From positions 3,927,001-3,991,000 of the forward strand of contig NZ_MEHJ01000001.1 in assembly GCF_001746415.1 (NCBI RefSeq): a stretch of 64,000 bases of DNA, read 5' to 3'. Of the stretch, positions 42,056 to 52,312 are shown one piece after another (the first letter of the stretch is position 1; every line of letters begins with the position of its first letter). The DNA comes from Streptomyces agglomeratus. Lineage in GTDB: Bacteria; Actinomycetota; Actinomycetes; Streptomycetales; Streptomycetaceae. The notes below the pieces were generated by a model. That model was not told the DNA's origin and searched no databases. It saw nothing but the letters and a program-made list of their open reading frames with translations. A program made the position numbers and the translations under genes.

Positions 42056-44892
42056 ACCGCTGGTACCACTCCTGGGTGGCCGCGGTGCGGATCGCCCGTC
42101 GCGACGCATGGCGCTTCAAGGGCCGCAGTTCCCTCGTACTCGCCATGATCGCCCTGCCCATCCTCGGCGTCAGCGCCGCGGACCTCACCCTGCGCAGCGC
42201 GGAGCTGTCCACCGAGCAGCAGATGGCGCGCGATCTGGGCGCCGCCGACGCCCGGATGACCGACCCGGGCATGGGCGGCGTGCCGATCCTCCAGGCACCC
42301 GACGGCCTCAACACCACGCCGGTGAAGGACTACGGGGACGGGGTGTGGCCCGAGGGCCGCGGTGACATCGAGGCAGCCTTCCCGGCGGGCGCGAAAACGC
42401 TCAAGGACGCGAACGGCAGCGGGAAGCTCCGTACCGGACACGGTCTGCTCAACGCGGTGATCCACGAGCTGGACGCGAACGACCCGATGACCCGGGGCAT
42501 GATGACCCTCGACCAGGGCCGGTTCCCCGACAAGGCCGGCGAGGTCGCCGCGACCGTGCACTTCCTGGAGGCCGGCGGCCTGAAGGTGGGTTCGACGATC
42601 GCCGCCCGGGGGCTCGACACCGAGTACCGGATCGTCGGCTCGTACGAACTCCCCGACTCGCTCAAGGCCGACGAGGTCCTCGCCCCGCCCGGCACGTTCC
42701 TCGCGCCGCTCGACAAGGCACTGAAGGCCGACGACCTGCCCGGCACCGAGACCAGCAGCACCTACCTGGTCTCCGTCGGTGGCGACGGTTTCACGTGGAA
42801 CATGGTCCAGAAGGCGAACTCCAAGGGCGTCGCGGTCATTTCGCGCGCAGTCGCCCTCGATCCGCCCGCCGACTCCGACGTGCCGCTCTTCCAGAAGGAG
42901 GGCTGGGCCAACTACGAGCAGAGCACCGCGTCCGAGGCCGCCGCGCTCGCCGTCGTCGCCACCGTCGTCGGCCTCGCCATGCTGGAAATCTGCCTGCTGG
43001 CGGGCCCCGCGTTCGCGGTGGGCGCCCGGCGCTCCGCACGCCAGCTCGGTCTCGTCGGCGCCAACGGCGGCGACCGCCGCCACATCCGCGCCATCGTGCT
43101 CTCCGGCGGTCTGGTCATCGGCATCGCCGCGGCCGTCGTCGGCACCGTGCTCGGCCTGCTCCTCACCTTCGCGCTGCGGCCGCTGCTCGAGGACACCATG
43201 GGCCGGCGGTTCGGCAGCTTCGACGTCCGGCCCCTGGAACTGCTCGGCATCGGCCTGCTCGCCGTACTCACCGGCCTGCTCGCCGCGATCGTCCCTGCCA
43301 TCACGTCGTCGCGCCAGTCCGTGCTGGCCTCACTCACCGGCCGCCGCGGCGTACGCCGCTCCAGCCGCGTCCTGCCCGTCATCGGCCTGATCGCGGCCGG
43401 GCTGGGCATCGCCATCACCCTGTACGGCGCCACCGCCACCGACAGCGTCCCCGTCGTCGCGGGCGGCAGCGCCCTCGCCGAGCTCGGCATCGTCGCGCTC
43501 ACCCCCGCCCTGGTCGGCCTCTTCGGCAGGCTCGGCGGGTGGCTGCCGCTGTCGCCGCGCCTCGCCCTGCGCGACGCCGTGCGCAACCGGGGCCGTACGG
43601 CCCCCGCCGTAGCCGCTGTGCTGGCCGCCGTCGCGGGTACGGTCGCGGTGGCGACGTACGCCGCCAGCGACGACGTACAGCAGCGTGCCGCGTACTCGGC
43701 GCAGCTGCCGCACGGCGCGGTGACCGTGCTGAACGCCGAGGGCGGCGGGCGGGACGTGCCGGCCCTGCGCGCGGCCGTCCAGAAGCACTTCCCCGTCGAC
43801 GTACGCGCCGATGTCAGCCGGATCACCGTGGGCAACGTCAACTGCGCCCCGTACAGCGACGTCAAGGGCTGCGGGCGGTACGAGATCCACACGCCGAAGG
43901 AGAACCGCTGCGCGCTGTGGACGGAGGGCACCCCGGGCGCCAAGGAGCTCACGCCCGCCGAGCGCCGCAAGCTGTCGTCGGACTGGCGCTGCAAGGAGAG
44001 CGGCCATTACGCCGAATACGACGTGCTGGTCGCCGACGAGAGGCTGCTGTCGGTGCTCGCGATCGACGACCCGGCCTCCGTCAGCGCTCTCAAGAGCGGC
44101 AAGGCCGTCTCCTTCGACCGCCGCAACGTCGAGAAGGGGAAGATCGGCATCAAGCTGATCACCGACCCCGCCAAGGCCGATCTGATGACGCAGAAGGGCA
44201 AGGAGTACCCCGGCGAGATCAAGTCCTTCGCCGTCCACGAGGCACCGAAGGCGGCCACCGCGTACGGGGTGAAGATCGTCCTGCCCCCTCAGGCAGCGAA
44301 GGCCGCCGGGCTCCTCACCGCCCCGGTCGGCGCGTACTTCTCGACCGACAAGCTGCCGAGCGGCCCGCAGCAGCAGAAGCTCGAAGCGGCACTGGACACA
44401 CTGGGCACCGACGGCGGCCTGTACGTCGAAAAGGGCTACACCAGTGAGAACAGCATCGTCCTGCTGGCCCTGACCGTCTTCGCCGGACTCGTCACCATCG
44501 GCGCGGCAGGCATCGCGACCGGCCTCGCCCAGACCGACGCCGAGCCCGACCTCAAGACCCTCGCCGCCGTCGGGGCGCCCCCGCGGGTGCGCAGGACGCT
44601 GAGCGGTTTCCAGTGCGGGGTGGTCGCCGCGATGGGCGTGGTGCTCGGCTCGGCGGCGGGCGTACTGCCCGCGATCGGCCTGCGGCTGACCGAGGAACGC
44701 CAGCAGTTGAAGTGGTACGAGGAGGCTCTGGACTCCGGCATGGGCGGCATGCAGGAGGCGCCGTACGTCCCGATCGTCGTCCCCTGGGAAACGCTCGCGG
44801 CGCTGCTCGTCGCCGTACCCGTGGGCGCGGCGCTCCTCGCCGCCCTGGTCACCAGGTCCCGCACCGCGGTGGCGCGGCGCGCGGCGGGCTGA
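42052..44892 (+). CDS. ABC transporter permease, large FtsX/MacB type
   Basis: This 946-aa membrane protein starts at GTG 42052, overlapping the ATPase stop by four bases. An N-terminal helix (about 20-38) is followed by a ~220-residue extracytoplasmic domain and an FtsX core of three helices (AAALAVVATVVGLAMLEICLLAG; SGGLVIGIAAAVVGTVLGLLL; LLGIGLLAVLTGLLAAIVP). Two more helices, a second extracytoplasmic domain with cysteines (NCAPYSDVKGCGRY), and a final FtsX core (IVLLALTVFAGLVTIGAAGIATG; GVVAAMGVVLGSAAGVLPAIG; AALLVAVPVGAALLAALVT) complete it. The duplicated FtsX layout means one polypeptide supplies both halves. A near-perfect parS lies inside the gene. Confidence 0.92.
42788..42801. other. 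parS-like site (13/14) inside the permease gene
   Basis: GTTTCACGTGGAAC differs from the Streptomyces ParB site GTTTCACGTGAAAC at one position. It lies in coding sequence. A second, perfect site is 5.2 kb away at 47953. Clustering of parS near oriC makes this a likely true ParB site. Confidence 0.55.
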
Positions 44893-46861: not shown

Positions 46862-47959
46862 CTACTCCGGCGACGTCACCCGCATGTCTCCCGCGCTCGT
46901 GACGCCGGGCGAGGCGCGCACGATGGTGATCACCCGGTCCGTCAGCTGGAGTGGGCTGGCCGCCGGGTCGTCGTAACCGAGCAGCCGGTGTCCGCGCAGG
47001 ACGCTGACCACCAGATCGTCGGTCTCCCGCACGTTCCTTCCCACCTCGGCCTTTATCACCGGCCGCTCGATGAGATCGAGACCGCTGCCCTGCTGGATCA
47101 GGTCTTCCATCACCGTGCCGGCGCTGGGGCTGAGCACCGACAGGCCGAGGAGACGGCCGGCCGCGCTGGCACTCGTGATCACGGCGTCGGCGCCCGACTG
47201 ACGCAGCAGCGGCGCGTTCTCCTCCTCACGGACCGCGGCGACGATCTTGGCGCCCCGGTTGAGCTGGCGGGCGGTGAGCGTGACGAGGACCGCTGTGTCG
47301 TCGCGCTGGGTCGAGATGACGACCTGGCGGGCGCGCTGCACCTCGGCACGCAGGAGTACGTCGCTGCGGGTCGCGTCACCCAGGACGCCCGTGAACCCGT
47401 CCGCGTTGGCCGCTTCGATGACCTTCGCGCTCGGGTCGACGACCACGATCTGCTCTTTCCTGAGCCCCGTGGCGGCCAGGGTCTGGATCGCGGAACGACC
47501 CTTGGTGCCGAATCCGACGATGACGGTGTGGTCGCGCAACTGGGACCTCCAGCGGTTCAGCCGCCACTCCTCCCGGGTCCGCTCCGTGAGGACCTCGAGA
47601 GTGGTGCCGACCAGGATGATCAGAAAGAGCACGCGCAGCGGTGTCACCAGCAGCACATTGATGAGCCTGGCGCTGTCGCTGTGCGGCACGATGTCGCCGT
47701 AACCCGTCGTGGAGAGGGTCACGGTGGAGTAGTAGACGGCGTCGAGGAAGTCGACGCTCTCGTCGGCGTTGTCGTGGTAGCCGGCGCGGTCGACGTAGAC
47801 GATGAACACCGTCAGGGCCAGGACCATCATGGCCATCAGCAGCCGCTTGCCGACCTGCCGGAGCGGGCGGTCGACAATGCGGCGCGGCAGCCTGATCCGA
47901 GCGGTGACGAGGTGCTCGTCGGCATGCCTGGCCATCGCATCTTGGCCGGGAAGTTTCAC
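46862..47959 (-). CDS. Two-helix potassium channel with RCK (TrkA-N/TrkA-C) domain
   Basis: This 365-aa protein has one helix (about 40-57), a pore loop with selectivity filter TTGYGD (84-89) and a second helix (about 100-122), the minimal KcsA/MthK channel layout. The cytoplasmic part has TrkA-N (NAD/nucleotide-binding VIVGFGTKGRS, about 145-270) and TrkA-C (about 275-360) domains, so gating by ligand is expected. I take GTG 47959 because AAGGA lies eight bases upstream; this start codon is inside a perfect parS and overlaps the moeA stop (GTGA). ATG 47935 is the alternative, but it has no ribosome site. Confidence 0.9.
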   Translation of the reverse strand: MKLPGQDAMARHADEHLVTARIRLPRRIVDRPLRQVGKRLLMAMMVLALTVFIVYVDRAGYHDNADESVDFLDAVYYSTVTLSTTGYGDIVPHSDSARLINVLLVTPLRVLFLIILVGTTLEVLTERTREEWRLNRWRSQLRDHTVIVGFGTKGRSAIQTLAATGLRKEQIVVVDPSAKVIEAANADGFTGVLGDATRSDVLLRAEVQRARQVVISTQRDDTAVLVTLTARQLNRGAKIVAAVREEENAPLLRQSGADAVITSASAAGRLLGLSVLSPSAGTVMEDLIQQGSGLDLIERPVIKAEVGRNVRETDDLVVSVLRGHRLLGYDDPAASPLQLTDRVITIVRASPGVTSAGDMRVTSPE

Positions 47960-47966
47960 GTGAAAC
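47953..47966. other. Perfect parS (ParB-binding) site
   Basis: GTTTCACGTGAAAC is an exact match to the Streptomyces parS 14-mer. ParB loads here for origin segregation. On the minus strand the same bases carry the moeA stop codon (47958-47956) and the GTG start of the channel gene (47959-47957). Confidence 0.85.
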
Positions 47967-49686
47967 GTCCTTCTGTCCAGGGCAGGTCAAGGATTTCCAG
48001 CTCTTGGCCGGCGCGTGCTCCGCCGGGCGGAACGACGGCCATGCCGTCGGCGGCGGCGATACCGCGGAGCATCGCCGGACCGTTGTAGTGCATTGGCACG
48101 GCCGGCTCCGGCCCGTCGCCGTCCTTGCCTCCGCCGCCCCGGCCTCCGCCGTCCATGCCTCCGCCGTCCATGCCTCCCCGTCGGTGGACGACGGGGACGA
48201 GCCGGGTGTCGTGCGGATGCCCGTTCACGTCGTCCCGTACGGGCGACAGGTACGGCGCGAGGGACGGCCGCCGGGCGCGGGCGCGCAGCAACGGCTCGGC
48301 CAGGGTCAGCAGGCCGGACACGGCGGCCAGCGGATTGCCGGGCAGGCCGACGAGATACCGCTCCCGGGCGGCTTCTTCCTTGCCCGCCGCCTCTTCCCGT
48401 CCCCCGGCGAGGCGCGCCAGGAGCATCGGGTGGCCGGGCCGCACCGCGACACCGTCGACCAGCAGTTCGGCACCGGCCCTGCGCAGGATCGGGTGGACGT
48501 GGTCGACGGGCCCGGACGCCGTACCGCCGGTGGTGACGACGATGTCGGCGTGCGACTCGGTGACGGCGCGGTGGAGTGCGTCGGCGTCATCGCCGAGGTG
48601 CCGCGTACCGATCACCTCGGCGCCGAGGGCGCGCAGCCAGGGGTCGAGGAGCGGGCCGAGGGCGTCGCGGACCATCCCGTCGTGCGGCAGCCCTTCGCCG
48701 AGCAACTCGTCGCCCAGTACGAACACTTCGACGCGCGGCCGGGGCACGACGGACAGCGCGTCATAACCGGCTGCGGCGGCGAGCCCGAGGACGGCCGGGG
48801 TCACGAGGGAACCGGCGGGCAGCAACTGGTCGCCAGTACGGCACTCCTGGCCGCGCGGCCGGATGTCCTGCCCCTGGACGACCTCACGGCGCGCGTACAG
48901 CCGCCCTGCGGCCTCGTCCAGCCGGCCGTGCTCGCTGCGGATCACCGCGGTGGCGTCGGGCGGGACACGGCCTCCGGTGGCGATGCGTACCGCCGCACCG
49001 TCGGCCAGCGCTCCGGGCGCGACCTGACCGGCCAGCAGCTGACCGCCCGCCTCCACGCTCCACCACGGCCCCGGCCCCGCGACCGCCCACCCGTCCATGG
49101 CGGACGTGTCGAAGGAGGGCAGGTCGGTGAGGGCGTCGAGGGGCTCGGCGAGCACCTGCCCGAGGGCCTGCGCGAGCGCCACCCGCCGGGTACGTGCCGA
49201 AGCCGCCGCACCGGCCCGTGCGGCGACGGCGCGGGCGTCGGCCCAGGGCGTTGCACGGGTACGGGATGCGGGCGGGGCGGGCACGGCGGCGGGCAGTCCG
49301 GACCGAGCGGCGAGCCCACCGCCCCGGGCCGCCTGCTCCGACGGCCGGCCGGCTGCCGGGTCCGGGGCCGGGGTCGGGTCCGGGCTCTGCTGGTCCGACG
49401 GGTCCGGGCTCTGCTGATCCGGCGCCGGGTCCGGGTCCGGTGCGGACGCGGGGTCCGGGTGCATGGCCGACGCCGGGTCAGGCGTCGGGCCCGACGCCCG
49501 GTCCGGGCTTCGGTCCGGGTACGACGCCGAGCCCGGGCCGAGGCTCGGGCTCGGGTCCGCCACCGGTTCCAGGGGCGGGCCCGGGTCCCGGTGCGCGGCC
49601 GGGGACAGTGCAGGGGCCGGCGCCGGCTGTGCGGTCCGGCGGACGAGGGCGAGGGCCTCCTCGAACTCGCGGTCCTCCTGGTTCAC
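47956..49686 (-). CDS. moeA: Molybdopterin molybdotransferase MoeA with long N-terminal low-complexity extension
   Basis: This 576-aa protein inserts molybdate into adenylylated molybdopterin. It starts at GTG 49686, overlapping the mobA-fusion stop by four bases. Residues about 1-15 (VNQEDREFEEALALVRRTA) are followed by ~130 residues rich in Asp/Pro/Ser (PDPASAPDPDPAPDQQSPDPS), absent from ordinary MoeA (~400 aa). The catalytic body then begins (VALAQALGQVLAEPL; SFDTSAMDGWAV; ATGGRVPPDATAVIRSE; VVTTGGTASGPVDHVHPIL; LVGLPGNPLAAVSGLL). A second Gly-rich insert (GGMDGGGMDGGGRGGGGKDG) is near the C-terminus. The stop lies in parS and overlaps the channel start. Confidence 0.9.
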   Translation of the reverse strand: MNQEDREFEEALALVRRTAQPAPAPALSPAAHRDPGPPLEPVADPSPSLGPGSASYPDRSPDRASGPTPDPASAMHPDPASAPDPDPAPDQQSPDPSDQQSPDPTPAPDPAAGRPSEQAARGGGLAARSGLPAAVPAPPASRTRATPWADARAVAARAGAAASARTRRVALAQALGQVLAEPLDALTDLPSFDTSAMDGWAVAGPGPWWSVEAGGQLLAGQVAPGALADGAAVRIATGGRVPPDATAVIRSEHGRLDEAAGRLYARREVVQGQDIRPRGQECRTGDQLLPAGSLVTPAVLGLAAAAGYDALSVVPRPRVEVFVLGDELLGEGLPHDGMVRDALGPLLDPWLRALGAEVIGTRHLGDDADALHRAVTESHADIVVTTGGTASGPVDHVHPILRRAGAELLVDGVAVRPGHPMLLARLAGGREEAAGKEEAARERYLVGLPGNPLAAVSGLLTLAEPLLRARARRPSLAPYLSPVRDDVNGHPHDTRLVPVVHRRGGMDGGGMDGGGRGGGGKDGDGPEPAVPMHYNGPAMLRGIAAADGMAVVPPGGARAGQELEILDLPWTEGRFT

Positions 49687-50576
49687 CCCGCGCCGTCTTC
49701 CGTGCCGTGGCCCGCGGCCTCTCCCTTGGCCTCTTCCTCCGCCTCGGCCGCCCAACGGGCAGCGAGCGCGGCGGCCTTGCGAGCCGCCTCGGCGACGGCG
49801 TCCGGCCCGTTGCCGCCCGCCTGTGCCGCCGCGTAGCCCACCAGGAAGGTGGTGAGCGGGGCGGCGGGCCTGGCGACACCGTGCGCGGCGTCGCGGGCGA
49901 GGTCGAGTAGAACGTTGATGTCGACGTCGAGCTCGACGCCGAGTTCGTCCTTGACTGCGGTCATCCATTCATCCAGCACACGCCCATGCTCCCTGATCCT
50001 GGACCGGGCCGCCGCAATGTCCTGCCAGGTGTCGCAGTCGAAGAAGTCGAGCGGCCCGGCGGCGACGCGCGTCAGAGCCAGCTCGTGCGTCAGCAGCCGC
50101 AGCGGCAGCCCGGAGAGCCCGCCGTGTTCGGTGGCGAGCAGCGCCAGTTCGCGGCGCAGTGGTTCGGCGCGGTACGCGGCGACGAGCGGCTGGTCACGCC
50201 CGTCCGCGTCCACGAGCAGCGCCGCCTCGGCCCCACTGCCGTCCAGGGCGTCGAGCAGCCGCTGTACCGTCCCGGTTTCGACGAACGGCAGGTCGGCGGA
50301 GAGTACGAGCAGGTTCCGCGCGGTCGTACCCCGTACACCGGCGTCCAGCGCGGCCAACGGCCCGCCTCCGGCCGGTTCCTCGCGCGCCCACTCGACGGCC
50401 CGCACGGTCGCCCGCCGACCGCCGACCACGACAGTCGTACCGGCCCCGCGGCACACGCCCAGCACCCGGTCCAGCAGGGTCCGCCCGCCCACGCGCACAC
50501 CGGGCTTGTCCACCCCACCGAGCCGCCTGGCGGCCCCTCCGGCCAACACGATGGCGTCGTACGCGGTCGCGGTCAT
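49683..50576 (-). CDS. mobA: MobA-like nucleotidyltransferase fused to a DUF6457 domain
   Basis: This is a 297-aa protein. Residues 1-195 are a MobA-like guanylyl/NTP transferase: LAGGAARRLGGVDKPGVRVGG (nucleotide loop), GGGPLAALDAG, LVLSADLPFVE (metal Asp) and QPLVAAYRAEPL. This activity attaches GMP to molybdopterin to make MGD. Residues about 200-297 form a helical module (LDEWMTAVKDELGVELDVDINVLLDLARDAAHGVARPAAPLTTFLVGYAA) matching DUF6457, normally a separate small protein. The tail is Glu/Ala-rich. It is coupled to moeA by a GTGA overlap, so the two molybdenum-cofactor steps are co-expressed. The ribosome site (ACTCGGGGC) is weak. Confidence 0.85.
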   Translation of the reverse strand: MTATAYDAIVLAGGAARRLGGVDKPGVRVGGRTLLDRVLGVCRGAGTTVVVGGRRATVRAVEWAREEPAGGGPLAALDAGVRGTTARNLLVLSADLPFVETGTVQRLLDALDGSGAEAALLVDADGRDQPLVAAYRAEPLRRELALLATEHGGLSGLPLRLLTHELALTRVAAGPLDFFDCDTWQDIAAARSRIREHGRVLDEWMTAVKDELGVELDVDINVLLDLARDAAHGVARPAAPLTTFLVGYAAAQAGGNGPDAVAEAARKAAALAARWAAEAEEEAKGEAAGHGTEDGAG

Positions 50577-50782: not shown

Positions 50783-52312
50783 CGGTGGTTTGTTAGACGG
50801 GGATGTAGAGGTCAAGTGGGTGGCCTGCGCCGACGGCGTTGATCAGTGCTTGGAGTTCGGGCGGTGGGGTGCATTCGTCCATGCGTGCCAGCATCGTTGG
50901 AGGTTGGTCCAGGGAGCGAGCCAGGCGCGGACGGCTCGGATCGCCTTGGGCCAGCTGGCCGGTTGGGGCTGGTGGGGTCTGCTTGGGCCCCCTCTCAGCC
51001 GGTCCCGGCGGCGTCGGGGCGGGCGGGAGCGCAGGGACGGGGGCGGGTTCCCGGTCTGGCGGATGAGCGAACCAGGTGTCCCAGCAGAACGAGAACGCGC
51101 AGGTGACCAGTGTCTGGTGGCGGCGGATGGCGGTGTCGGAACGGACCTGGAAATCGGCCCATCCGAGTTCGTCCTTGACCTGTTTGTAGCTCTGCTCGAT
51201 CCAGTGACGGATGCCGTAGATCCGCACGACTTCGTGCAGGTCAGCGGCGGGATGAGGGTGGTCGGCCTCACGGGGGCCGCCGGGGCGGGGCAGGTCGGTG
51301 GCCAGGTACCAAGTTGCCTGCGCGGGCAGGATGGCCGGGTCGGTGGTGGCCACGACCAGGCGGACGTTTCCGTCCGGACCCCACCAGCCGAGGTGGGCGT
51401 CGGCGGCCCACCAGGTCTCGGTGTGCCCGTTGCGGAAAGTCCGCTCAACCGCGGTCCAGTCCCCGGGATGCTCGGGATTGGTCCAGGTCAGTGCGCGTGC
51501 GGCGTCGACGGGGGTGTAGGCATCCTTGCCGTAGGCCCACGTGCCGTGGCTCGGCTTGAGGGCCATGACGAACGGCAGACCCGCCTCGCCGAGTTGCCGG
51601 CGGAAGCCGTCCTGGTCGCCGTAGGCGCAGTCGGCGGCCACGGCCCGGAAGGCCACCCCGGCAGTCTTGGCGGTGCGGGCGAGTTCGGCTGCGATCTGCA
51701 GTTTCGTGCGGAAGCCGGGGTCGCTCTTGCCGGCGGGGAAGTGACGGGCGGGGCTGTAGGGCACCGCGTGGAGCGGGTAGTAGACGCTCTCGTCGGCCCA
51801 GCAGGTCGTCACGGTGACGATGCCGTTGTCGGTCTTGCCCAGTCGGCCCAGCCACTGCCGCCCGACATGCGCGGTCGCGGTCCCGTCCTTGCGGTCACCC
51901 GAGTCGTCGATCACCAGTACCCCGCCCGCGTGCGGCTCGGTCGCCGGGTCGGCGAGCAGCAGTTCCAACCGGCGGGCGTTGATCTGCTCGTGGTCCCAGG
52001 TCGACTCGGAGAGGAAGAACTGCAGCCGCTGCACCGCCGGGTGCTGGGCTCCGGCCACGGGCTCGGCGCCGGCCAGGCAGGTCAGGGTCTTGTTGCGGTC
52101 CCGCGGCAGCAGCAGCCCGGCGAGGTACTCACGGAACCCGCGTCGCTGGGCCAGCGTGGAGAGCAGGTCATCGAAGCGTGCGGCGTAGGCTTCCAGCGGG
52201 CCAGGAGCCGGCGGGCACGGCACACGACGGGTCATCACAACCCCCAGGCAGCGAGGCGACTTTCCTCTCTACCGGCCTACCCCAACACTGACCCGCCGTC
52301 AACAAACCACCG
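50783..52312 (-). mobile_element. Intact IS701-family insertion sequence
   Basis: The element is 1530 bp. Its ends carry 12-bp perfect inverted repeats: CGGTGGTTTGTT (50783-50794) and AACAAACCACCG (52301-52312), with looser similarity inward. A CTAG target duplication flanks it (50779-50782 and 52313-52316), as expected for IS701 elements, which prefer YTAR sites. One full-length transposase gene lies inside. The right CTAG contains the stop codon of the second bkd E2 gene. Ends, duplication and gene are all intact, so the element is probably young and may still be active. Confidence 0.9.
50793..52235 (-). CDS. IS701-family DDE transposase
   Basis: This is a 480-aa transposase. ATG 52235 follows GGGGG; a GTG directly before it (52238) is an alternative. 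DDE catalytic residues are seen in LVIDDSGDRKDGTATAHVGRQ (Asp), AVAADCAYGDQDGFRRQL (Asp) and RHWIEQSYKQVKDELGWADFQVRSD (Glu). The N-terminal FLSESTWDHEQINARRLELL segment is typical of the family. A Pro-rich stretch (about 400-430) precedes the C-terminus. The stop lies about 10 bases inside the left inverted repeat, so the gene fills the element. It cuts and pastes the IS by acting on the CGGTGGTTTGTT ends. Confidence 0.93.
   Translation of the reverse strand: MTRRVPCPPAPGPLEAYAARFDDLLSTLAQRRGFREYLAGLLLPRDRNKTLTCLAGAEPVAGAQHPAVQRLQFFLSESTWDHEQINARRLELLLADPATEPHAGGVLVIDDSGDRKDGTATAHVGRQWLGRLGKTDNGIVTVTTCWADESVYYPLHAVPYSPARHFPAGKSDPGFRTKLQIAAELARTAKTAGVAFRAVAADCAYGDQDGFRRQLGEAGLPFVMALKPSHGTWAYGKDAYTPVDAARALTWTNPEHPGDWTAVERTFRNGHTETWWAADAHLGWWGPDGNVRLVVATTDPAILPAQATWYLATDLPRPGGPREADHPHPAADLHEVVRIYGIRHWIEQSYKQVKDELGWADFQVRSDTAIRRHQTLVTCAFSFCWDTWFAHPPDREPAPVPALPPAPTPPGPAERGPKQTPPAPTGQLAQGDPSRPRLARSLDQPPTMLARMDECTPPPELQALINAVGAGHPLDLYIPV

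Follow-up and report, generated by a model that had tools for sequence, protein, structure and literature searches.

The window, by which we mean the whole 64 kb stretch of DNA that was analysed, contains adjoining minus-strand genes for a MobA-like protein, MoeA and a K+-channel-like protein, and a perfect parS palindrome lies on the junction between the last two. The features of the locus are as follows.

42788..42801, plus strand: parS copy with one mismatch, GTTTCACGTGGAAC, inside a long open frame (..GFTWNM..)
46862..47959, minus strand: channel gene, 365 aa, K+-channel-like by its domain matches
47953..47966, no strand assigned: perfect parS palindrome GTTTCACGTGAAAC, 14/14 match to the consensus in a scan of the window
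47956..47958, minus strand: TGA stop of moeA, at parS positions 9-11
47957..47959, minus strand: GTG start of the channel gene, at parS positions 8-10
47968..47973, minus strand: GAAGGA, a Shine-Dalgarno-like motif for the channel gene, directly upstream of parS
47956..49968, minus strand: moeA open reading frame, with MoeA_N, MoCF_biosynth and MoeA_C at residues 244-662
49683..50576, minus strand: MobA-like gene upstream of moeA (TIGR02665, 68.2 bits, under the cut-off of 151.85)

The channel protein comprises an Ion_trans_2 domain (residues 45-125) and a TrkA_N domain (146-262), and its NCBIfam matches all fall under cut-off. The true start of moeA probably lies downstream of the listed ATG, and the C-terminal tail of MoeA, after LPW, finishes RFT at parS. 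An IS701-family transposase gene (window 50793-52238) is situated directly upstream of the mobA-moeA-channel genes.

Stop-start overlaps of four nucleotides, of the type GTGA or ATGA, are junctions of translational coupling. At this locus the moeA stop and the channel start share the four nucleotides GTGA on the minus strand, inside parS, and the GAAGGA motif stands 8 nt from the channel GTG, such that the junction has both the overlap and the Shine-Dalgarno motif ahead of the start by which coupling is recognized. The first-pass annotation had placed a perfect parS on the moeA/channel junction and had read its GTGA as supplying the moeA stop TGA together with the channel start GTG, and both statements are borne out, the site matching at 14/14 (47953-47966) in the minus-strand register described. 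It had also named a start at ATG 47935 as the circumstance that would remove the overlap with the channel start. Comparison among orthologues makes the GTG the likely start, because 6/7 non-carrier orthologues (those without the junction parS) that align from residues 1-3 begin GTGAAGCTCCC (Val-Lys-Leu-Pro), a G[AG][AG]G motif is found at a fixed distance from the start in 135/151 perfect carriers, and codon 9, the alternative ATG, is variable: 105 of these carriers have ATG there, and 46 have ATC or ATA. The start at ATG 47935 was rejected on the latter count.

The perfect parS copy at the junction is the only one in the window, and matches with up to two mismatches number 2 as compared to 0.05 expected from shuffled sequence. 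In the genome of 9.13 Mb there are 13 perfect sites, all within 277 kb (C1:3.826 to 4.103 Mb), where base composition predicts 0.003; the one-mismatch copies number two, both of the variant GTTTCACGTGGAAC, with the second at C1:4076666. The dnaA gene is located at C1:4035715, placing the junction parS 61 kb to its left, on the side away from parB. A ParB protein scoring over cut-off for TIGR00180 is encoded at C1:4042327-4042857, approximately 6 kb from dnaA and 67 kb from the junction parS, and the same model gives three further matches over cut-off elsewhere in the genome. As dnaA and an over-cut-off ParB are both nearby, the junction parS is an oriC-region parS. Sites of this kind are reported to number 24 near oriC in S. 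coelicolor and 16 or 17 in S. venezuelae (PMC4852455, PMC12511625), and the site described here resembles that cluster in its 14-mer, its grouping around oriC and the proximity of a chromosomal ParB, but differs in that it serves as both a stop and a start codon.

The position of the site relative to dnaA is consistent between genomes, with an offset of -61.1 kb (sd 5.0) in 15 genomes that were chosen for having this pattern and that of a parS at cydD on one contig, most addresses being assigned by pattern and position alone; the cydD parS lies at 63.3 kb (sd 3.8) on the opposite side of dnaA in the same 15 genomes. In five genomes for which all perfect sites were listed, the junction is the sole position common to all within 120 kb left of dnaA, and several positions are common to the five on the right. 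A published survey places about 80 per cent of parS to the right of oriC (PMC8743542), the junction parS belonging to the less populated left side. The survey covers 20 closed genomes and gives its sites in a supplement, and the junction address is probably included in such a published site list.

A rough codon-usage scan places two of the 13 perfect sites of the genome on start codons, at the junction and at cydD, so that of the 12 other sites 11 are off gene starts. The cydD site, ATGTTTCACGTGAAACC, is at C1:4103010 (L013:1499-3013, G000:C1:4103008), about 63 kb away on the other side of dnaA, and its strict pattern is found in 113/295 genomes of the genus. It shares with the junction site a position on a start codon, but only the G of the cydD ATG falls within parS, and the upstream frame ends outside it. 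The first-pass annotation had called the overlap of parS with a coupling junction unusual; this holds in part, being tempered by the second start-codon site in the rough scan and by a GTGA overlap that seems older than parS.

Conservation was assessed in 104 genomes of the same genus, the window's own included, since the best 80 of 545 Streptomyces channel loci (a perfect parS covers the start codon in 79/80; L061 instead has a one-mismatch copy on the start and a perfect one on the moeA stop) are biased to close relatives. The junction parS is present in 83/104 genomes, as a perfect copy on the channel start in 72, as a one-mismatch copy there in 2, and as a perfect copy on the moeA stop only in 8; one further genome (G403) has its perfect copy on the moeA stop, where about 17 channel codons survive within a frame of 38 codons. 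The remaining 21 genomes have none, a point to be set against a site kept for ParB. A strict DNA pattern, GTTTCACGTGAAACTNCC, finds the site in 190/295 genomes of the genus and misses variants at codons 3 and 4, for which reason the protein-based count was used. Outside the genus, 22 genomes from other genera of the family (L105, L106, L108-L127; of 51 searched) have no perfect parS near the junction.

At the level of individual loci, 205 were counted (10 others, fetched for dnaA, ParB or cydD, being left out), of which 201 show moeA; these are not all independent, as the named and later-set genomes may share species or strain (L055 and L137 look alike). The 161 loci aligning from residues 1-3 provided the alignment rows, the rest of the 205, later-aligning or rearranged, being dropped. 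Among the aligned loci 154 carry the junction parS at no more than one mismatch and 151 carry it perfectly; the moeA stop falls within a perfect parS in 153 of the 201 loci with moeA in view. The comparison of junctions across streptomycetes that the first-pass annotation had proposed thus finds the site and the overlap co-conserved through most of the genus, with the 4-nt overlap inside parS in 137 of the 150 perfect carriers that have moeA in view. The parS columns contain 3 substitutions in 154 x 14 positions, and in the columns upstream of parS the leading base stays below 70 per cent in 24/30. The site is conserved as DNA beyond coding need, one of the features by which a chromosomal parS is recognized.

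That pattern bears on a suggestion of the first-pass annotation, namely that translation constraint could preserve the site. In its fuller form, the start codon, the coupling overlap and the N-terminus of the protein would hold the sequence in place, and its agreement with parS would be accidental. The GTG, the Lys and the Leu codons are indeed coding requirements, and the GTGA overlap occurs without parS. However, six non-carriers share the GTGAAGCTCCC start but have different spacers, whereas the left half of the palindrome, GTTTCAC, is unaltered in 152/154 carriers. Furthermore, codon 2 goes against codon bias, as it is AAA in 153/154 carriers when the other Lys codons of these genes are 107 AAA (8%) vs 1211 AAG, and it is AAG in the six non-carriers with the GTGAAGCTCCC start.

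Natural rearrangements separate the partners more directly. In the 8 rearranged genomes the channel gene at this place is replaced by one for a channel approximately 60 per cent identical to that of the window, convergent with moeA, and a separate gene encodes the second half of the channel; parS nevertheless remains on the moeA TGA in 8/8 and so outlives the channel in every case. The base following it is A in 8/8, the Shine-Dalgarno pattern is left in 1/8, and the eight loci contain 15 parS copies in total. These genomes appear to fall at four places on the moeA tree, one group having a support of 0.999. Channel remnants persist at L217 and L233, which makes the persistence of parS there weaker evidence. 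At L214-L221 the second-half gene matches the corresponding part of the channel at 75-80 per cent identity (L219: 67), is divergent from the full ~60 per cent channel and adjoins one to three parS copies.

The reverse loss is seen at five loci (L081, L103, L170, L171, L194), where the moeA stop is outside a perfect parS and a perfect parS is still on the channel start. At the moeA stop of these loci the parS-like stretch has 1 mismatch in L081 and 5 in L170, L171 and L194, and none is left in L103; the copies on the stop decay where another perfect copy is close (L081, L170, L171, L194), a further point against a site kept for ParB. Seven further loci (L032, L074, L075, L099, L133, L141, L173) have two perfect copies, one on the stop and one on the start. 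The decayed and double copies suggest that an extra copy may decay, yet the address retains a site. The proposal that translation preserves the site is contradicted in both directions, since parS persists without the channel start in the 8/8 rearranged genomes and in G403, and stays on the channel start at the five loci where the moeA stop has left it. With the AAA at codon 2 and the conserved left half also against it, translation as the keeper of the site was rejected and is considered highly improbable.

What coding does constrain is the flank, and this counts against a site held for its DNA function throughout. The parS consensus has a 16-bp form with a flanking T and A. Across 27 further parS copies, taken from this genome and four relatives, a T precedes the site in 17; the base that follows is A at 18 copies, G at 6, C at 3 and never T. 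The sample was drawn from 16 loci, vs 69 listed sites, and 27/30 were kept after removal of L246, L247 and L248, which represent the cydD and moeA addresses in reverse orientation. After the junction parS the base is T in 152/154 carriers, in contrast to 0/27 at the other sites, because codon 3 encodes Leu. In L172 and L179, where codon 3 is His or Gln rather than Leu, the base is A, the commonest at other sites. Several columns downstream of parS are invariant because they code. The T in Leu carriers and the A in L172 and L179 argue that the channel gene holds only the base just outside the site and that parS holds the inner 14 bases.

A palindrome at a translation start could alternatively act in the mRNA, for example as a hairpin that masks the channel start and is opened by a ribosome on reaching the end of moeA. 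The 14-mer alone is predicted to fold into a 5-bp hairpin of -2.3 kcal/mol, and the predicted openness of the Shine-Dalgarno motif is slightly lower in carriers (0.42, vs 0.56 in 6 non-carriers). The start region nevertheless folds with a similar mean energy in 151 carriers and 6 non-carriers (-26.1 vs -26.4), and the start codon itself is predicted to be more open in carriers (0.60 vs 0.31). As folding predictions give little sign of such a role, the hairpin was rejected, and control of channel translation by it is barely conceivable.

The origin of the site was traced on a tree built by maximum likelihood from 106 rows of the MoeA core, trimmed of its tail. Of the carriers whose stop is in parS one in three was sampled, and rearranged loci were kept; L059, L117 and L126 were left out, and L107 and L236 represent one genome. 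The tree requires one change, with 64/64 sampled carriers in a single clade (SH-aLRT 97) and no non-carrier within it, a count that treats the two one-mismatch genomes as carriers and becomes three changes if they are taken as non-carriers. In a 99-row version 63/63 carriers group together with a support of 98. None of the 21 genomes of the genus that lack the site falls within the carrier clade. The 4-nt overlap is present in 6/6 non-carriers that begin GTGAAGCTCCC, which argues that the GTGA junction probably predates parS and that parS was built onto it. Moreover, the non-carrier start GTGAAGC is one base off the right half-site GTGAAAC. On the moeA side, the MoeA tail after LPW varies from 6 to 36 residues in carriers, and its length varies in several non-carriers too; where the stop is in parS (153/153 loci), the protein ends in CFT, RFT or GFT.

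Taken together, the data are best explained by a site kept for ParB which the genes accommodate. Very probably it is a genuine oriC-region parS that evolved once on a pre-existing GTGA overlap and has since been kept as a predicted ParB loading site. It would have been gained once, in the ancestor of most sampled Streptomyces, upon the GTGA overlap of moeA and the K+-channel-like gene. The palindrome supplies TGA and GTG in the required frames and its left half fills the spacer between the Shine-Dalgarno motif and the start; since the frames fit, the left half is spacer and GTGAAGC is one base from GTGAAAC, the site could have formed without harm to either gene. Later selection on the DNA site, for the loading of ParB at a constant position ~61 kb to the left of dnaA, would then retain the 14 bp, to which the genes would conform by holding codon 2 at the rare AAA and by ending the variable tail of MoeA in ..FT-stop. 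We infer from these sequence comparisons that ParB binds at the junction and that the site serves in segregation; ParB would most likely load here as at other parS, with the genes tolerating it. The overlap is accordingly best seen as a tolerated dual use and not as a regulatory device.

The other function that could be assigned to ParB at this site is the regulation of the channel gene or moeA, with loaded or spreading ParB blocking transcription elongation or the initiation region at sporulation, the stage with the largest ParB complexes, and the site being kept for that control. A perfect parS over the channel start in 72/104 genomes would fit such a role. In addition, P. aeruginosa ParB is reported to repress promoters next to the intergenic parS3 and parS4 (PMC5521831), and ParB binding in a sporulating S. 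venezuelae culture is reported to be stronger at 14 h than at 20 h (PMC4852455). Published effects of ParB near parS differ, however, as the intragenic parS1 and parS2 of P. aeruginosa are described as leaving their neighbours unaltered (PMC5521831), and loss of Spo0J in B. subtilis as having no effect on the genes beside parS (PMC7022226). The junction site also lies inside an apparent operon and persists where the channel gene is gone or moved, which makes regulation by ParB unlikely. A more elaborate version, in which segrosome assembly is linked through the junction to K+ flux or the supply of Moco, is very unlikely; ParB clamps loaded on the start codon at sporulation would transiently shut the channel, and the conserved junction/cydD pair (~-61/+63 kb) would serve as outlying stations for the loading of ParB/SMC, with the adjacent genes sensing segregation. 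Viewed as a loading site, the junction parS is a real but fairly quiet curiosity, with no proven switch of the channel gene.

The location of parS inside genes is already known, with nine of ten parS of P. aeruginosa PAO1 predicted within coding sequences (PMC4368675); PMC5521831 describes parS3 as intergenic as well. The junction site is similar to the intragenic sites of P. aeruginosa in being embedded in protein-coding DNA, but its palindrome straddles a gene end and the following gene start, and supplies their own TGA and GTG. Likewise, it shares with other GTGA/ATGA coupling junctions, including those of the 6 non-carrier orthologues, the 4-nt overlap and the upstream Shine-Dalgarno motif, but here the overlap is centred in a segregation site. 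Among the matches listed in the literature search, no title or abstract describes a parS serving as both stop and start codon, and an earlier mention in S. coelicolor is possible.

The junction is a clean case of a centromere-like site that shares its bases with two reading frames in a large part of a genus; each partner has been lost naturally in some genomes, and these losses reveal the one that selection retains. It also offers a fixed parS address on the sparse left side of oriC that could be broken with little or no protein change. As the proteins would be left near-intact, the effect of a single parS on both neighbour expression and segregation becomes measurable.

Two minor observations concern related loci. 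At L213 and L222 (G408) the channel gene is apparently split, with residues 1-141 following parS in a 191-codon frame and residues 135-360 located 12 kb off, perhaps with a TTG start of their own. Elsewhere in the cluster, the parS sites at L001 and L010 (G000:C1:3826222 and 4055526) are at the centre of longer perfect palindromes with 10 and 11 further pairs, respectively; these resemble the tip of a terminator hairpin, and L239, L240 and L241 of relatives (-213 to -282 kb) look similar.
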